Shown here: one piece after another, positions 32,258 to 40,119 of the stretch | Layout of the letters: the number at the start of each line of letters is the position of its first letter | How positions within the stretch are numbered: position 1 is the first letter of the stretch | NCBI RefSeq assembly: GCF_024734405.1 | Contig: NZ_CP059556.1 | Coordinates: 5,394,001 to 5,458,000 of the forward strand | Source: Saccharopolyspora gregorii | Lineage (GTDB): Bacteria > Actinomycetota > Actinomycetes > Mycobacteriales > Pseudonocardiaceae | Direction: 5' to 3' | Length of the DNA stretch: 64,000 nucleotides | Made by a program: the position numbers and the translations under genes | Notes under the pieces: generated by a model | What the model saw: the letters and a program-made list of their open reading frames with translations, nothing else | Database searches by the model: none | Told to the model about the DNA's origin: nothing

Positions 32258-33034
32258 TCAGGAAGGTGGGCGCAGCAGGCAGCTGTCCATGATCCAGCCG
32301 TGCCGGTCGCGGGCCTCGGCGCGGAGTTCGGCGATGCGGTCGGCGACCTCGTCGAGCGGCCCGGCGACCGAGAGCTCGTCGGGCGTGCCCACGTAGGCGC
32401 CCCAGTGGATCCACCAGCCGCCGCCGCGCCGGGCCGCGATCGCTCCCGGCACGTCCAGCATCACCAGGGTGTCCTCGCGCAGGTCCGGCCGGTCCACGCC
32501 GGGACGGCCGGTGGTGATGCGGACGGGCCTGCCCACCCGGGTCCAGGTGGTGCCGTGGTGCGCGGCGAGCGCGGAGATGCTGCTGATGCCGGGGACCACC
32601 TCGCAGGTGAGGTCGCCCGCGGCGCGGATCTCCGCGAGGACGTCGAGAGTGCTGTCGTAGAGCGCCGGATCGCCCCACACCAGGAACGCGCCGGTCTCCC
32701 CCGGCGCGAGCTCCTCGTGCACGACCCGCGCCCACTGCTCGGCGCGGCGCCGCCGCCAGTCGTCGACCTGCGCGCGGTACTCGTCGGTGCCCGCGGTGGT
32801 GCGGTCGCGCGGCGGGTCGGGCATCGCGACGGTCCGGGCGGAGTCGGCGGCGTGCTCGCGGAGGATCTCGGCGCGCACCCGCAGCAGCCGTTCGGTGCGC
32901 TTCCCCTTGTCCGGCAGGAAGAACACGTCGGTGCGGCCGAGGGCGTCGACCGCTTCGAGGGTGAGGTGGCGCGGGTCGCCCGCGCCGATGCCGATGGCGA
33001 TGAGGTGCCTGGCACCCGCCGACGTTCCGCTCAC
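32258..33034 (-). CDS. cobF: Precorrin-6A synthase (deacetylating)
   Basis: Corrinoid C1-methyltransferase of the aerobic cobalamin pathway; it removes the acetyl group of precorrin-5 and adds a methyl at C1. 258 residues with the tetrapyrrole-methylase motif IGIGAGDPRHLTLEAVDAL at the N-terminus, the active-site-loop VWGDPALYDST and PGISSISALAA. The GTG start has GGGAGG upstream. It lies 44 nt after an unusual biosynthetic operon and may be read with it, but is separated from other cob genes. Confidence 0.9.
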   Translation of the reverse strand: MSGTSAGARHLIAIGIGAGDPRHLTLEAVDALGRTDVFFLPDKGKRTERLLRVRAEILREHAADSARTVAMPDPPRDRTTAGTDEYRAQVDDWRRRRAEQWARVVHEELAPGETGAFLVWGDPALYDSTLDVLAEIRAAGDLTCEVVPGISSISALAAHHGTTWTRVGRPVRITTGRPGVDRPDLREDTLVMLDVPGAIAARRGGGWWIHWGAYVGTPDELSVAGPLDEVADRIAELRAEARDRHGWIMDSCLLRPPS

Positions 33035-33078
33035 GACGACCTCCCGCTGTCCGCTGCTCCGGGCCCCATCCTCCCCGG

Positions 33079-33990
33079 TCAGCCCGCGCGATCCTCGGCG
33101 AGGTGCGCGCGGTACCAGGCGAGGGAGCGGGCGAAGCCGACCTCGAACGGCGTCGGTTCCCGGCCGCTGCCGCGCCAGGCGGCGGTGGAATCGAAGTACC
33201 GGTCGCAGGCCAGCAGCGACAGCTGGTCGGCCGCGCCGGGCAGCCGCTGCACCGCGTCCCGGTAGGACATGTCCCGCTGCGGCGCGGGAACGCCGAGGTC
33301 CGCGACGATCCGGTCGACCAGCGCGCGGACCGGCACCGGCCGCGGGTGGTTCGCGTGCAGCACCCGGCCCGGCGGCGCGCCGTCGACGGCCAGTGCCGCG
33401 ATGATCTCGGCGAGGTCGTCCACCCACACCATGCCGAGCCGGGGCCGGGCTCCCTCGATCGTGCTGCCGGTCGCGGCGAGCAGCCGGGCGAGGCCGGGCA
33501 CCACCCAGCGGTCCCCTGCGCCGTACACGAAGTAGGGGCGGACGACGGTCCCGCCCGCGGCGAGCACCGCGTTCTCCCCGGCGAGCCGGGTCTCGCTGGT
33601 CACCGACTCCGGGCGGGGCCGCACCTCGTCCTCGGCGGGTCCGCGGTGCTCGCCGCGGCCGTAGACGGCGGCGGTGCCGAGCTGCACGAAGCGGTGCACG
33701 CCCGCGCCGCGCGCCTCCGCCAGCAGCGCCCGCACGCCCGCGTCGTTGACGGCCCGGCAGGTGTCCGGGTCCGAGCCGACGGCGGCGGCCAGGTGCACCA
33801 CCGCGTCCACGCCCGCACAGCTCCCGCGCAGCGAGGCCGGATCGGCCAGGTCGCCTTCGACCTGCTCGTCGTCGTCGCCGGTGCGCCGGTGGTGCACGAG
33901 GGTCCGCAGCCGCACCCCGCGCTCCCGCAGCGCCCGGCGGGTGGCCGCGCCGACGAACCCGGTCGCGCCCGTCACCAGCAGTGCCGTCAT
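33079..33990 (-). CDS. NAD-dependent epimerase/dehydratase-like protein lacking YxxxK
   Basis: Extended-SDR protein of 303 residues. The cofactor motif GATGFVGAATR at the N-terminus and the DAVVHLAA strand indicate NAD(P) binding. The catalytic YxxxK is not present: in the aligned SVTSETRLAGE segment the Tyr and Lys positions are Thr and Arg. It may be an atypical reductase or a binding protein. The ATG overlaps the ubiA-like stop by 4 nt (ATGA). It is the last of five genes in an operon with an AfsA-type protein. Confidence 0.8.
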   Translation of the reverse strand: MTALLVTGATGFVGAATRRALRERGVRLRTLVHHRRTGDDDEQVEGDLADPASLRGSCAGVDAVVHLAAAVGSDPDTCRAVNDAGVRALLAEARGAGVHRFVQLGTAAVYGRGEHRGPAEDEVRPRPESVTSETRLAGENAVLAAGGTVVRPYFVYGAGDRWVVPGLARLLAATGSTIEGARPRLGMVWVDDLAEIIAALAVDGAPPGRVLHANHPRPVPVRALVDRIVADLGVPAPQRDMSYRDAVQRLPGAADQLSLLACDRYFDSTAAWRGSGREPTPFEVGFARSLAWYRAHLAEDRAG

Positions 33991-34895
33991 GCCCAGCTCA
34001 CCACCGCTGCTTGGCACACCAGTGCCGCGTACCACCCGAGCACGAAGGTCATCGCAAGCCCGGCGGGCCAGGCGCGGCTGCCGCCGAAGAACCGCCGCGC
34101 CCCGACGGCGGGCAGCACCAGCGCGCAGTACGGCAGCAGCCGCCCCAGGTCGGCGGCGCCGTCGAGCTCCCACGGCCGGAACAGCACCGCGGCGGAGGCG
34201 GCGGCCAGCGCCGGTGCGGCCAGCACCAGCACCGCGCCGCCGACTGGCCCGACGACGTTCGAGTACAGCCGCGCATCGGCCGGGGCCGTCCACGCCGTCT
34301 TGCGGGCGAACTCGAAGTGCAGGAACACGCAGGAGAAGCACCCGATCAACCCGATCGCGGCCGGGTCGAGCCCGCCGGTGGCCGAGACGCACACGTACAC
34401 GCTCAGCAGCACCTGCACCGGATAGGTGATCGCGAGGTTCGGGAACAGCGCGTCCCGCAGCCGCGCCGACCGGCGCTCCAGCACCACCAGCAGCAGCGCG
34501 TAACCCAGGTCCAGCGCCAACACCGCCACCGAGACCGCCTCGACCAGCGCGTTCGCCAGCACCAGCAGCGCGGCGAACAGCAGCATCCAGCGCCGCAGCT
34601 CGACCGCGGTGATGGAGCCGCGCACCAGCGGCCTGCCGGGGTTGTGCTCCCGGTCGTAGTCGAGGTCCTTCTGCTCGTCGACCATCCGCAGGTACAGCAG
34701 CACCAAGCCGACCGAGCATATCCGCACCGCCGTGCCCGCCGACGGCGCCCACCGGTCGCCGGCGACGACGGCGAGCGACCCCTCCAGCGCGAGCACCCAC
34801 AGCACCGCGTACGTGCCGTAGACCTTCGGCGGGAACACGTCCAGCACGAACCGGCCCAGCCGAGCTCCCGCCCCGGGAGCGGCGGTGGTGGTCAC
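33987..34895 (-). CDS. UbiA family prenyltransferase
   Basis: A 302-residue integral membrane protein with about seven to nine helices. The prenyl-diphosphate motif is DEQKDLDYDREHNPGRPLVRG-like (first Asp-rich motif, near residue 70, kept). The usual second Asp-rich motif is replaced by a FEFARKTAW-type segment, as in some aromatic or atypical prenyltransferases. Neither the prenyl donor nor the acceptor can be deduced. The GTG overlaps the stop of the PEP-synthase-like gene in GTGA. It is part of the AfsA-type operon; the acceptor may be an intermediate from the other enzymes. Confidence 0.83.
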   Translation of the reverse strand: MTTTAAPGAGARLGRFVLDVFPPKVYGTYAVLWVLALEGSLAVVAGDRWAPSAGTAVRICSVGLVLLYLRMVDEQKDLDYDREHNPGRPLVRGSITAVELRRWMLLFAALLVLANALVEAVSVAVLALDLGYALLLVVLERRSARLRDALFPNLAITYPVQVLLSVYVCVSATGGLDPAAIGLIGCFSCVFLHFEFARKTAWTAPADARLYSNVVGPVGGAVLVLAAPALAAASAAVLFRPWELDGAADLGRLLPYCALVLPAVGARRFFGGSRAWPAGLAMTFVLGWYAALVCQAAVVSWA

Positions 34896-37582
34896 GACGG
34901 CACCTCCAGCACGGTGACCTCTCCGGAGGCGCCGTCGACGGCGATCCGCGCCCCGTCCGGGATGGCGGTGGTGGCGCCGCGCAGCGACACCACGGTGGGG
35001 ATGCCGAACTTGCGGCCGGTGATCGCGGTGTGCGACAGCATGGTGCCGCGCTCCACGACGATGCCCTTCGCGGTGAGCATCAGGAACAGCCAGCCGGGAT
35101 CGGTCTCGCGGGCGATGAGGATCATGCCCTCGCCGGGTTCGACGGGGTCGCGCGGGTCGAGCACGATCCGCGCGGTGCCTTCGACGCGGCCGCTGCTGGA
35201 ACCGAGGCCGCGCAGCTCTCCCCCGCCGGGGTCGGCGGCGGCCCGCACGGCGCCGAGGGAGGTGGTGACCCCGCCGAGGGTGCTGAACCGCTCGGGCAGT
35301 TCCGGCGCGTCCTGCTCGAATTCGGCCTTGCGGACGGCGGCGACGGCGCCGAGGTCGCGGGTGACGCCGGTGCCGTCGAAGTGGCCGAACACCTCGTCCT
35401 CGGTCAGGTGCACCACGTCGGCGGCGGAGCGCAGCACGCCCTGCGCGGCGAGGTCCTCGCCGAGCGAGTGGAAGACCGTCTTGGCGAGGCCGAACAGTTC
35501 GCTGCGGCAGTAGCGCGAGTTCTCCCGGTGCCGCACGCTGCGGCGCAGCTTGTCGAGCAGCCGCCGCAGCACGGCGAGCTTCGGGGAGCGGGCACCGAGG
35601 GCCGCGGTGAGCCGCCGCTCGGCGTCGGCGCGGATGCGCTCCTCCCGCTCGACGAAGGTGGCCCGGTCCAGGCCGGCTCGGGCGTAGTCGGCGACCGTGC
35701 GCAGCAGTGCGCCGGGTTGGGCGCGCAGCGTCGGCTGTTCCATCTTCAGGTCCTGCACGCTGCGGTCCCCGTAGCGGTGCAGGTGCTCGTGCACCGCGGC
35801 GCGGAACGCGTCCCCGTGCCGACCACCGTCCACTTCGGACCACACCTGCGCGGCGGGCCGGTCGTCCATCGCGGCGAGGAACTCCGGCCGGGCGCGGGCG
35901 AGTTCGGCGAGGCCGACGGCGGAGAGCACGGCGGCTTCGCCGCGGTTGCGCTCGCCGCCGCACAGCAGGTCGTTGAGCACGCCCTCGTCCAGCCCCGGCG
36001 CCCACTTCGCGAGCAGCCCGCGGACGGCGCCGGTGGTGGCCGACAGCACCGAGTCGTTGATCAGCGTGACGCCCCAGTGTGCGCCGACCTCCCGCCACGC
36101 GGCGCGGAAGTCCGCGATCCGGGCCAGCGGGTCCCGCTGCGCCCAGTCCACCGCGCGGCGCGGTGCGATCACGCCTTCCCACCAGGTCTCGAACTCGCGC
36201 ATGGCCCGGTCGTGCCGGGCCAGCGCCCGCAGCAGCCGGGCGAGCGGACCGGCGAGCCTGCCGACCACTCCGGGCCACGTCGGCGCCAGCGAGCGCAGCG
36301 AACCCTCGCCGCTGACGGGCAGGCCCATCATCTGCTCCCAGGAAGCCCGCAGCAGCGGGAAGAACGCGACCTGACCGTGCAGGTGCAGCCACGAGTCCAG
36401 GTCGTAGTAGACGCGGCCGCCGAGGTAGCCGATCATCCGCTCCAGCTCGGGCCCGCTCGCGTCGAGCAGCGCCCGGTCCACGCCGTAGCGGCGGTACAGG
36501 TCGTGGAAGATCGTGCGGTAGAAGCCCCGGGCGAACGAGTAGGTCAGCGCGGTCGTGGTGCCGGAGAAGCTCTCGGTGACGTTCGCGTTGCTCCACTGCT
36601 TGCGGGTGGACAGGTCGATCGCGATGGGCCGGGCCTGCACGAGGCGGATGGTGCCGTCCTCGGTGAGCACGCCTTCGACGTCCTGCGGGGCGCCGAGCAG
36701 CGCCGCGACCCGGGCGCCGAGCGCGGCGACCTCCCGCACCTGCGCTTCGTCGAGCACCGGCGCGTCCCGCAGTTCCGGCGGCACCGGCAGCGGGACGGGC
36801 CCGGCGTCGGGGCGGTCCGGGTCGAGGCCGAGGAGTTCCGGCTTGTGCGCGAGGTGCGACTCGCAGCGGCCGGTGGCCGAGCGCAGGAAGTAGTGGTCCA
36901 CGCCGACCTTCTCCTGCACGACGCCTTCGCCGATGCCGTGCCCGGCGGCGAGCACCGCGTCGTCGGCGCCGGTGGCCGGATCGCAGGTGAACAGCACGAA
37001 GGACTTGGCGCCCAGCACCATCTCCTGCACGCCGACGGACACCGCGAACCCGTCGAGCGCGAGCCCCTGGACGTGCCGGTACAGCAGCGCTTCGGCGGTG
37101 AACCCGGACGCCCAGCACTCGCGGACCCGGTCCAGGACGCGGTCCCGGCCCACGTACAGGAAGCTCTCCCCCATGCCCGCGAACGGGTCGGCGGCGGAGT
37201 CCTCGCTCTCCCGCTCGGAACGGCCCACGCTGGAGGAGCGGACGGCGACCAGCGAGCCGGGCGCGAAGGTCGCGTCGAACGCGTCGAGCACGGACCGTTC
37301 GACCCCGGCGGGGAACGGGACGTCGAGGAACAGGTCGCGGATGGCCTTCGCGGCGGCGTCGAGGGAGGCGCGGTCGGTGAAGTCGATGCCGTCCAGCTCG
37401 CGGCGGATCCCGCCGCCGATCTCGCGCGCCACGTCGCGGAAGACGGCGGCGTCGAGGCAGCAGAACCGCGGCACCGGCAGGCCCGCGGCCCGCATCTCGG
37501 CGAGGCGCGCGAACTTGTTGCCGACCTGCGCGCCGGTCGGCCGGGCGTCGTCGTGGATCATCGCGGCGGTCACCGGTCCCAT
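34892..37582 (-). CDS. PEP-synthase/rifampin phosphotransferase-like protein
   Basis: An 896-residue cytosolic phosphotransferase. The N-terminal ATP-grasp domain (about residues 10-310) has the VAVRSSSVGRSE and FAGMGESFL motifs; a long linker (about 310-790) follows; the C-terminal swivelling phospho-His domain has SHTAITGRKFGIPTVV with the His near 851. It should transfer phosphate from ATP through His to a small molecule. The middle domain does not match pyruvate-binding PpsA, so the acceptor is unknown. The length (~900) matches RPH proteins. ATG at 37582 is coupled to the ICMT-like stop (TGATG). Confidence 0.8.
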   Translation of the reverse strand: MGPVTAAMIHDDARPTGAQVGNKFARLAEMRAAGLPVPRFCCLDAAVFRDVAREIGGGIRRELDGIDFTDRASLDAAAKAIRDLFLDVPFPAGVERSVLDAFDATFAPGSLVAVRSSSVGRSERESEDSAADPFAGMGESFLYVGRDRVLDRVRECWASGFTAEALLYRHVQGLALDGFAVSVGVQEMVLGAKSFVLFTCDPATGADDAVLAAGHGIGEGVVQEKVGVDHYFLRSATGRCESHLAHKPELLGLDPDRPDAGPVPLPVPPELRDAPVLDEAQVREVAALGARVAALLGAPQDVEGVLTEDGTIRLVQARPIAIDLSTRKQWSNANVTESFSGTTTALTYSFARGFYRTIFHDLYRRYGVDRALLDASGPELERMIGYLGGRVYYDLDSWLHLHGQVAFFPLLRASWEQMMGLPVSGEGSLRSLAPTWPGVVGRLAGPLARLLRALARHDRAMREFETWWEGVIAPRRAVDWAQRDPLARIADFRAAWREVGAHWGVTLINDSVLSATTGAVRGLLAKWAPGLDEGVLNDLLCGGERNRGEAAVLSAVGLAELARARPEFLAAMDDRPAAQVWSEVDGGRHGDAFRAAVHEHLHRYGDRSVQDLKMEQPTLRAQPGALLRTVADYARAGLDRATFVEREERIRADAERRLTAALGARSPKLAVLRRLLDKLRRSVRHRENSRYCRSELFGLAKTVFHSLGEDLAAQGVLRSAADVVHLTEDEVFGHFDGTGVTRDLGAVAAVRKAEFEQDAPELPERFSTLGGVTTSLGAVRAAADPGGGELRGLGSSSGRVEGTARIVLDPRDPVEPGEGMILIARETDPGWLFLMLTAKGIVVERGTMLSHTAITGRKFGIPTVVSLRGATTAIPDGARIAVDGASGEVTVLEVPS

Positions 37583-38226
37583 CACCACACCGCCGGGATG
37601 AGCCGGGGGCGGTCGCGCGCGTAGTCGGGGTAGTCGGGCAGCCGCATCAGCGTGTCCTCCTCGACGAGGACGCGGCGCACCACGGCGGGCACCATGAGCG
37701 CGGCGAACGCGAGCACCCCGTACGGGTTCAGGAACGCGGCGACCAGCCCCAGGTGCGCGAACACCATGCCGGTGTAGGCGGGGTGGCGCACCAGCCGGTA
37801 GGGCCCGGTGCTGACGATCGCGTGCCCGTCGACGGTGCGGACGCGGTGCGAGTAGAAGCGGCCGAGCCGGTGCACGGCGGTGAGCCGCAGCACGACCCCA
37901 CCGAAGAACACGGCGACGGCGGCGGTGCGACCGAGCCCCCACCCGTCCCAGGTGTTCGGGGGCAGCGCGACGGCGGCGAGGACGGCGAGCCGGGACAGCC
38001 CGTAGAGCTGCAGGCTGCCGCGGTCGGCGGAACTGGTCTCCTGCACCGAGCCCTGGAAGGTGACGCGGGATTCCAGCAGCGTCCACGCCAGGTAGGCGAG
38101 CAGGACGGCGGCTTCGCCGGACGCGGGATCACCGTCGAGCAGGCGGCCGCCGATCCCCCAGGCGAGCACCAGCATCCCGCACAGGAAGATCGCGGGCGGG
38201 AAGAGGCTCTCCAGCTTGCGGTTCAT
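37582..38226 (-). CDS. ICMT family (isoprenylcysteine carboxyl methyltransferase-like) protein
   Basis: A 214-residue membrane protein with four to five helices. The family motif GPYRLVRHPAYTGMV lies at about residue 140, followed by the VEEDTLMRLPDYPDYARDRPRLIP tail. Homologues methylate carboxyl or other groups on hydrophobic substrates; bacterial ones are poorly known. The ATG is part of a 4-nt overlap (ATGA) with the AfsA-like gene. Within this operon a hydrophobic or prenylated substrate is plausible (inference). Confidence 0.83.
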   Translation of the reverse strand: MNRKLESLFPPAIFLCGMLVLAWGIGGRLLDGDPASGEAAVLLAYLAWTLLESRVTFQGSVQETSSADRGSLQLYGLSRLAVLAAVALPPNTWDGWGLGRTAAVAVFFGGVVLRLTAVHRLGRFYSHRVRTVDGHAIVSTGPYRLVRHPAYTGMVFAHLGLVAAFLNPYGVLAFAALMVPAVVRRVLVEEDTLMRLPDYPDYARDRPRLIPAVW

Positions 38227-39032
38227 CGTGCTGCTTCCCGGTTGGCCCAGCGCAGGTGGTCGTACACGCGCGGGGGAACGATCATGCCGGTGAGCCGGAC
38301 GGAGCCGATCACGTCGCCTGCGGCGAGCAGGTCCACGGCGAACTCGACGCGCTTGCGCCGCATGGTCATCGTGGTGGTGCGGAGCCGGACGTCCTCGGTG
38401 GCGGCGACGGGGCGGCGCTGCTCGTGCCGGACCCCGTTGAGCACGTACTTCCAGTCGTGCGCCACGTCCCACACCTGGTGCCCGACCAGGGTGATCAACT
38501 GGCGGGCGCTTTCGACGAGTTCGAGCGCGGAGCGGTGCCGCGGGTCGCGGCGGCGCAGCGCGTGGTCCGGCGCGAAGTCGAGGATTCGCGCGGTGCAACC
38601 GGAATCGTCGCCGGTGAAGTCGCCGATGGCGACGTTCTCCGTACGGTGGCGGTGCACCAGCTCCCGATCGACCGGTACCGGTGCGGGCAGCACGGGGCCG
38701 GGTGGCGGCGGGTCGTGGTGGTCGCGCAGCGACACGTTCCCGTCGGCGACGACGAGTCCGCCGGAGGAGCAGTACGCGTCCCAGCGCTCCCCGTCGGTCG
38801 CCGGGCTGCTCATCAGCACTTCGACCGGGCGGTCGAGCTCGCAGAAGTGGTGGAACTCCACGGCCAGCTCCGCGACTCGGCCCGGGGACGCCGAGGCGAG
38901 CCCGGCGATGCCGTCGAGCAGCAGCATCGCGGGCAGGTGGTCCAGCGGGTGGTCGAAGAAGAACGCGTCCGTCGGATCGGAGACCATTGATCCGATCATC
39001 GTGTGCACGACGGAGTCGATCGTGACGCTCAT
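38223..39032 (-). CDS. AfsA-type A-factor/butenolide biosynthesis hotdog protein
   Basis: A 269-residue protein with the two AfsA hotdog repeats. The first has FFFDHPLDHLPAMLLLDGIAG (AfsA signature DHPxDHxPGM); the second contains RILDFAPDHALRRRDPRH and WKYVLNGVRHEQRRPV. AfsA condenses a beta-ketoacyl thioester with dihydroxyacetone phosphate to make gamma-butyrolactone signals. The ATG has GAGGAG upstream. It is the first gene of the operon, with 4-nt overlap to the ICMT-like gene. No ArpA-like TetR receptor is adjacent; a UTRA-only protein is divergent instead. Confidence 0.83.
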   Translation of the reverse strand: MSVTIDSVVHTMIGSMVSDPTDAFFFDHPLDHLPAMLLLDGIAGLASASPGRVAELAVEFHHFCELDRPVEVLMSSPATDGERWDAYCSSGGLVVADGNVSLRDHHDPPPPGPVLPAPVPVDRELVHRHRTENVAIGDFTGDDSGCTARILDFAPDHALRRRDPRHRSALELVESARQLITLVGHQVWDVAHDWKYVLNGVRHEQRRPVAATEDVRLRTTTMTMRRKRVEFAVDLLAAGDVIGSVRLTGMIVPPRVYDHLRWANREAAR

Positions 39033-39543: not shown

Positions 39544-40119
39544 ATGAGCGCGGCGGAGCACGACGACGAGGGCGGCGCGGCCACCGGCCCGCCGCGGGTG
39601 GCGCGGCTCGACGCCCGCGAGCGGCTGAGCCGGGCGCGCCGGGAGCGGAACGAGGGGGCCTTCCTCGCCGAGGCCGCCGCGCAGGGCTTCGTCCCCGACT
39701 CGTCCACCCAGGTCTGGTTCGAACCGGCCGCCGACCTCGCCGAGCCGTTCGGGATCCACGCCGGGGACGAGATCTGCGTCCGCGACCGGGTGCTGCGCGC
39801 CGACGGGCACCCGGTGCTGCTGGCGGTCTCCCGGTTCCCGCGGTCGATCACCGCCGGGACGGCGCTGGAGCGCCCCGACACCGGGCCGGGCGGCGCACCG
39901 GCCCGCCTCGACGAGCTCGGCCACGGCGCCACCCGCTACGAGGAGGTCGTCACCGCCGCGATGGCGACCGAGCTGGAACGGCGGGCGCTGGAGACCGAAC
40001 GCGCACCGCTGCTGCACGTGCGCCGCACCACGTGGAGCGGGGACCGCGTCGTCGAGCTCACCGACGTGAAGATGCCCGCCGGCGCCGCCGAACTCCGCTA
40101 CTCCTGGGACGCCTGCTGA
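39544..40119 (+). CDS. Stand-alone UTRA domain protein
   Basis: A 191-residue protein. After ~25 variable residues it matches the UTRA ligand-binding fold of GntR/HutC regulators: VWFEPAADLAEPFGIHAGDEICVRDRV, HPVLLAVSRFPRSIT, RYEEVVTAAMATELERRALE and PLLHVRRTTWS. There is no winged-helix domain and no trace of one upstream. It may sense a ligand and act with another protein, or be the remnant of a GntR regulator. The ATG has GAGGAGGGG upstream. It is divergent to the AfsA-type operon, so a role in sensing its product is possible. Confidence 0.75.
   Translation: MSAAEHDDEGGAATGPPRVARLDARERLSRARRERNEGAFLAEAAAQGFVPDSSTQVWFEPAADLAEPFGIHAGDEICVRDRVLRADGHPVLLAVSRFPRSITAGTALERPDTGPGGAPARLDELGHGATRYEEVVTAAMATELERRALETERAPLLHVRRTTWSGDRVVELTDVKMPAGAAELRYSWDAC

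Follow-up and report, generated by a model that had tools for sequence, protein, structure and literature searches.

A five-gene AfsA operon of Saccharopolyspora gregorii as a putative ICMT-containing variant of the salinipostin-type gene clusters

What would be made by an operon that joins the gene for an AfsA-like butyrolactone-type synthase to genes for a phosphoenolpyruvate (PEP) synthase-like dikinase and a UbiA-like membrane protein? Such an operon lies in a 64,000-nt stretch of the Saccharopolyspora gregorii genome, which we call the window (G000:C1:5394001-5458000 of a single-contig 6.34-Mb genome; window G+C content, 73%). Five intact minus-strand genes, in the order afsA-icmt-ppdk-ubiA-SDR, successively overlap by 1 to 4 nt (Table 1). 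Their coordinates and domain assignments agree with an original prediction made from the sequence alone, with the UbiA kinship resting on weak profile matches. The prediction also stated that AfsA was not known to occur together with UbiA and a PEP-synthase-like enzyme, and this proved wrong: the combination forms the core of the salinipostin-type clusters. By its gene content, the window operon very probably belongs to the wider salinipostin-type family.

The comparison begins with four Salinispora loci (L086, L089, L097, and L098, from S. pacifica, S. mooreana, S. cortesiana, and S. oceanensis). In each, nine overlapping genes covering about 11 kb encode, in order, a PPDK, a fatty-acyl-AMP ligase, a 557-amino-acid (aa) protein, an acyl carrier protein (ACP), a thioester reductase, an NDK-like protein, a UbiA-like protein, an F420-type LLM protein, and AfsA. 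We take these loci to be the nine-gene spt cluster, with spt9 as the AfsA butyrolactone synthase gene; Kudo 2020 and Creamer 2021 reportedly describe a nine-gene spt operon with spt9 in that role. The window operon likewise has an AfsA-type synthase, a PEP-synthase-like dikinase, a UbiA-like protein, and a reductase, encoded by overlapping genes, and the first three also occur together in Nocardia, Kutzneria, Paractinoplanes, and many Streptomyces. However, of the two, only spt has the ligase, 557-aa protein, ACP, thioester reductase, and NDK-like protein; it has no ICMT, and its reductase is the F420-type LLM protein. No member of the alkyl set (AMP ligase, thioester reductase, and NDK-like protein) was among the genes predicted within the window operon or in its surroundings. 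In one paper (PMC8609351), spt is one of nine characterized Salinispora cluster families and salinipostins serve as standards.

We surveyed relatives with a profile of seven UbiA-like proteins, keeping the best 80 of 155. Seven more loci (five found via the UbiA-like protein, and L018 and L019 via PPDK) brought the number scored to 87, in which L009/L050 and L010/L090 are apparently the same genomes counted twice. Genes were called with a custom script. Ten gene families were scored by tblastn (for L093, in place of gene calls), with presence thresholds of our own choosing and a query panel drawn in part from the same scored loci; reductase matches were counted per locus, not per position. We defined type I loci as spt-like, with the ligase, thioester reductase, and NDK-like genes, and type II loci as resembling the window, with icmt and no alkyl genes. 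By these definitions, 75 loci were type I and 10 were type II, none was both, and two (L069 and L013) were unclassified. The ligase, thioester reductase, NDK-like, AfsA, and UbiA-like families were each present in all 75 type I loci, PPDK in 73, and ACP was detected in 49. AfsA was present in 86 of the 87 loci (83 by tblastn and 3 more by Pfam), the remaining one, L069, being a truncated contig, and PPDK was present in 84. ICMT scored 0 in the type I loci. Conversely, the ligase and NDK-like families scored 0 in the 10 type II loci, where the reductase query reached at most 68 bits against a threshold of 100. We read type II as a small, rare variant of the known salinipostin kind of cluster, with ICMT where the usual clusters hold long-chain genes.

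Sixteen type II clusters were assembled in total: the ten scored loci, the window, L105, L106, and L107 from further genomes of the window's family, and the plasmid loci L120 and L121. Five other genomes, drawn from three families, showed the same five-gene order as the window (L020, L021, and L026 from Streptomyces, L034 from Allosalinactinospora, and L040 from Parafrankia), so the operon is more than a chance arrangement. One of the three family members, L105, is in the window's genus, and its cluster is divided into divergent blocks. The UbiA-like protein was present in 6 of 150 genomes of the order, and ICMT relatives at an E value of 1e-30 were found in 5 of 297 genomes of the family and 1 of 396 of the phylum, with the window's own genome included in all three counts. 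Of 17 matching plasmid records, the 10 listed comprised nine from Streptomyces clavuligerus and one from Streptomyces durmitorensis, and we examined two. S. clavuligerus plasmid pF1D18A has a complete five-gene type II cluster (L120:10932-17610) encoding AfsA, ICMT, a PEP-type protein, a UbiA-like protein annotated as hypothetical, and an NADP oxidoreductase. On S. durmitorensis plasmid p1 (L121:4669-14991), genes for AfsA, ICMT, a nitroreductase, a PEP-type dikinase, and a P450 are followed by those for a nucleotidyltransferase and two KAS III proteins and by one annotated as thymidylate kinase. In L034 (6537-7237), icmt was called as two overlapping pieces, perhaps because of a sequencing error or a true break.

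What is the ICMT doing in place of the alkyl set? According to a 2019 review (PMC6681047), the phosphate esters are C15 in a salinipostin and C16 in a cyclipostin, and cyclophostin, a bicyclic enol phosphotriester that bears a methyl group and comes from Streptomyces lavendulae, is the methoxy member. The ligase, ACP, and thioester reductase therefore fit the fatty alcohol of the C15 and C16 esters. We consider it probable, if only just, that type II clusters make the same bicyclic enol-phosphate butyrolactone core with its phosphate methylated, giving a cyclophostin-like O-methyl phosphotriester on an acyl-butyrolactone. From the observed gene content, gene order, homology, and residues, and from the lack of any locus with both ICMT and the alkyl set, we infer every chemical step of the following route and its product. 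The AfsA-like protein would join a beta-ketoacyl thioester to dihydroxyacetone phosphate, yielding a butenolide phosphate, which a reductase (the SDR in the window) would saturate. The dikinase would then phosphorylate or activate the enol at the expense of ATP, and the UbiA-like protein, holding the phosphate or diphosphate by its Asp motif, would close the bicyclic enol phosphate. Finally, ICMT would methylate the last phosphate oxygen, producing a neutral methyl phosphotriester. The methyl group would thus replace the long alkyl ester that type I clusters would make with the ligase, ACP, reductase, and NDK set. Our analysis bears out the original prediction insofar as this is a small-molecule operon built on AfsA and including a methyltransferase. 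The predicted methylated lactone or glycerol-like signal is plausible in part, as a methylated lactone derived from glycerol phosphate with the methyl placed on the phosphate; its prenyl component was not supported (see below).

The window ICMT matches PF04140 (63.4 bits) and PDB entry 5vg9 (4.1e-7), and it weakly matches LmtA (E value, 0.0019), an ICMT-like lipid A 1-phosphate methyltransferase that acts on phosphate. It falls below the isoprenylcysteine methyltransferase cut-off, so its acceptor is not fixed by family. An unlikely alternative, in whose favor the core genes are common to spt-type clusters, is another phosphorylated acyl-butyrolactone with a salinipostin-like core, in which ICMT would methylate elsewhere (the enol, another oxygen, or a carbon) and the phosphate would remain a free diester or be lost. 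The varying extra genes of type II clusters, such as P450, also speak for it. However, ICMT and the alkyl set occurred together in 0 of 87 loci, which is best fitted by one shared ester position.

The AfsA-like protein raises a different alternative. It matches PF03756 in two stretches (59.4 bits; gathering cut-off, 24), and its residues 16-87 align to positions 198-276 of the ScbA/BarX equivalog profile NF041195, which places the C-terminal-type hotdog domain first. In contrast, the spt AfsA has the normal order (aa 13-303 on profile positions 1-284). We examined the order with one hidden Markov model per hotdog domain, derived from the AfsA proteins of 74 type I loci. The C-terminal-type hotdog came first in nine AfsA proteins (window, L018, L019, L020, L021, L026, L034, L082, and L105), and NF041195 concurred on this first domain for the window and L018. 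The second hotdog was best matched as N-terminal type in 7 of the 9; in L018 and L082 it fit slightly better as C-terminal type, making the swap ambiguous there. L040, L066, L095, and L106 had a single recognizable hotdog, in the C-terminal part of AfsA, and L107 AfsA was called short at its N terminus. The window AfsA is thus predicted to have its two hotdog domains in swapped order.

Membership of the AfsA family is also what would be expected if the product were a plain A-factor-like butyrolactone hormone, with the dikinase, UbiA-like protein, and ICMT serving its tailoring or export. The spt cluster also gives A-factor-like lactones. Furthermore, ScbR-type regulators are encoded in the window's genome and on both type II Streptomyces plasmids. 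Nevertheless, we regard this explanation as quite improbable: the window AfsA scores 85.9 bits against the NF041195 cut-off of 200 (the Salinispora AfsA is likewise below it, at 183.2 bits), the receptor occurs in genus members without any AfsA, and such a hormone has no need for a dikinase or a UbiA-like protein.

The product of the operon may act as a signal. The window afsA is the sole AfsA gene found in its genome, which encodes a single ScbR-type regulator scoring above its family's cut-off, approximately 620 kb from the operon. Pairing of operon and receptor by co-occurrence was not supported, because a strong ScbR-family match was present in 6 of 6 genomes of the genus (over the cut-off in 4) and any AfsA in only 3 of 6. 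In G336, a member of the genus, the surroundings of the AfsA gene showed no further type II gene. The AfsA at L119:9228-10061, in a genome of the genus other than the window's, sits in a different neighborhood, with no ICMT, PPDK, or UbiA-like match. Two ScbR-type regulators over the cut-off are encoded on pF1D18A, approximately 80 kb from the cluster, and one on p1; no second AfsA was found in searches confined to these plasmids. According to one report (PMC5702194), pSCL4 of S. clavuligerus ATCC 27064 bears that genome's only butyrolactone receptor. The pF1D18A count of two differs from this single receptor, and we do not equate the plasmids.

The UbiA-like protein had no Pfam family match at an E value of 0.01. 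Its kinship came from weak matches to NCBIfam PRK13592 (2.3e-6) and, best among PDB profiles, digeranylgeranylglyceryl phosphate (DGGGP) synthase (3.4e-7). DGGGP synthase acts on a glycerol phosphate ether. In 22 UbiA-like sequences, D73, D77, and D81 were invariant, as were E195, R198, and K199. The first Asp motif, D73xxxD77xxxD81, departs from NDxxDxxxD in that N becomes D and the next D becomes E relative to DGGGP synthase. E195, R198, and K199 presumably sit at the place of the second Asp-rich motif of UbiA proteins, a stretch outside the PDB alignments. The unusual residues claimed for this protein are therefore real, as are those of the SDR (see below). The superfamily kinship with DGGGP synthase speaks for the earlier proposal of a lactone or glycerol-like signal that receives a prenyl group from UbiA and a methyl group from ICMT. 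We consider this very improbable and rejected a prenylated signal as the leading reading. Against it stand the missing Pfam match, the altered first motif, and the invariant E..RK at the presumed second-motif site. Moreover, none of the five genes encodes a prenyl-diphosphate synthase, and the homologues lie in clusters whose known products, the salinipostins, bear alkyl and not prenyl chains.

A role for the dikinase in the methyl phosphotriester route is suggested by its family. The enzyme consists of a PPDK_N ATP-binding domain and a PEP-utilizers swiveling domain carrying His851, which was invariant in 13 dikinase sequences and which we take to be the phosphohistidine. This architecture is shared with the rifampin phosphotransferase/PEP synthase family: the profile match to PDB entry 5hv2 was 8.6e-113, and 5hv2 and 5fbs, both at about 1e-112, are named PEP synthase in the PDB; we believe them to be rifampin phosphotransferases. 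PEP synthase produces an enol phosphate, and an enol phosphate is also the key bond of the proposed product, hence the role assigned to the dikinase. The Salinispora dikinase (L086:1724-4270) passes NF004881, "phosphoenolpyruvate synthase" (1399.3 bits; cut-off, 883), a name that may conceal secondary-metabolism enzymes.

The SDR matches PF01370, the NAD epimerase family (92.9 bits). Its YxxxK motif was replaced in the window protein and five homologues (an alignment of six), with Arg at the Lys position. All 16 type II clusters had a reductase gene, from one of three unrelated families and in varying places: an SDR in the window, L020, L021, L026, L034, and L040; a nitroreductase in L018, L019, L082, L105, L107, and L121; and an MDR-type reductase in L066, L095, L106, and L120. 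None of the 16 had SDR and nitroreductase together, with MDR not sought in the SDR and nitroreductase clusters. An F420-type LLM protein was found in Salinispora and Paractinoplanes loci, and a nitroreductase was scored in 54 of the 75 type I loci. Because unrelated reductases substitute for each other, these data suggest one shared reaction, which we read as butenolide reduction.

Several observations weigh against a methylated phosphotriester. We know of no product of any type II cluster. The window dikinase was under the cut-off in all 25 NCBIfam models listed (best, NF004881; 544.9 versus 883), as were the AfsA score given above and the ICMT score for isoprenylcysteine methyltransferase NF040696 (40.2 bits versus 160). 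The LmtA match was very weak, at 18 bits versus a cut-off of 325. A UbiA-like gene was not found in 3 of the 16 type II clusters (L019, L107, and L121), where P450 was present, and the UbiA-like protein thus appears dispensable in some of them; L018 had both genes. No counterpart of the type I NDK-like kinase was seen in type II clusters. A literature search found no cyclophostin gene cluster, and there was no producer genome among those compared; the link to type II is by inference. In addition, the PPDKs of the two types fall into two deep groups that share only about 30% identity, and the type II dikinase could act differently from that of type I.

The same divergence bears on how often the two gene sets came to exclude each other. 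A PPDK tree of 38 rows (14 type II, 23 chosen type I, and L013), made by a quick method with SH-aLRT support only and with a long-branch warning for L105, had type I on one side of one branch; type II, with L013 among it, needed two changes. A UbiA tree of 37 rows (12 type II, 24 chosen type I, and L013), which excluded L019 and L107 because the UbiA-like gene was not found there, was weakly supported, with a very long L105; type II needed four changes and formed no clade. L120 and L121 were in neither tree. Therefore, type II as a single clade was not upheld. With two deep PPDK groups and a weakly supported UbiA tree, the exclusion does not amount to many independent events and may reflect one or a few, which also counts against the methylated phosphotriester.

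The biosynthetic question is older than this operon. The accessible text of the 2019 review (PMC6681047) merely suggests a common origin with butyrolactones for the bicyclic enol phosphate of cyclophostin, cyclipostin, and salinipostin, leaving the route open. Comparing types I and II sorts the likely core genes (AfsA, dikinase, UbiA-like, and reductase) from the likely phosphate-ester genes (ICMT versus the fatty-alcohol set), and this offers a system of five genes in which every step can be tested. More tentatively, and with distinctly less confidence than for the product itself, we suggest that type II could be a minimal, so far undescribed route to methyl enol-phosphotriester butyrolactones and the cyclophostin-type pathway that has been missing, of which an S. 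clavuligerus plasmid also carries an example. It would comprise a domain-swapped AfsA, a PEP-synthase relative phosphorylating the enol of an acyl-lactone, a UbiA-fold protein that has exchanged prenyl transfer for phosphoryl ring closure, and a phosphate-methylating ICMT. We found no paper joining AfsA with isoprenylcysteine, or at least three of AfsA, UbiA, phosphoenolpyruvate synthase, and isoprenylcysteine; type II is possibly already in print in Kudo 2020 or Creamer 2021. With a type II cluster and ScbR-type regulators on one plasmid, the industrial organism S. clavuligerus is a tractable host for the signal question.

Table 1. Genes of the operon and its downstream neighbor (positions within the window)
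Gene	Product	Position	Strand	Basis and remarks
afsA	AfsA-like butyrolactone-type synthase, 269 aa	38223-39032	-	PF03756, NF041195, domain HMMs
icmt	ICMT-family membrane methyltransferase, 214 aa	37582-38226	-	4-nt overlap; PF04140; putative phosphate O-methyltransferase
ppdk	PEP-synthase-like dikinase, 896 aa	34892-37582	-	1-nt overlap; PPDK_N + PEP-utilizers; putative enol/phosphate activation
ubiA-like	Membrane protein, 302 aa	33987-34895	-	4-nt overlap; weak profile matches; putative ring closure
SDR	Epimerase-like, 303 aa	33079-33990	-	4-nt overlap; PF01370; putative butenolide reductase
cobF	Precorrin-6A synthase	32258-33034	-	44-nt gap after SDR; TIGR02434; neighbor, outside cluster

The gap to cobF and the identity of its product (270.7 bits for TIGR02434; cut-off, 195.8) were as originally predicted. 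We rejected cobF as an operon member, because CobF was not found beside the relatives: it was the best match of no called gene in the 87 relative loci (gene calls were lacking for L093). On the other side of the operon, 511 bp away and divergent from afsA, window positions 39544-40119 encode a 191-aa protein whose only Pfam domain is UTRA, making it a possible candidate for a ligand-binding regulator. Finally, the unclassified locus L013 (1-13217) has a third architecture, with PPDK, a UbiA-like protein, DUF6182 and AAA proteins, AfsA, KAS III, ACP, and a ketosynthase, and it also encodes a fusion of a HAD-type hydrolase with a PEP-utilizer domain.

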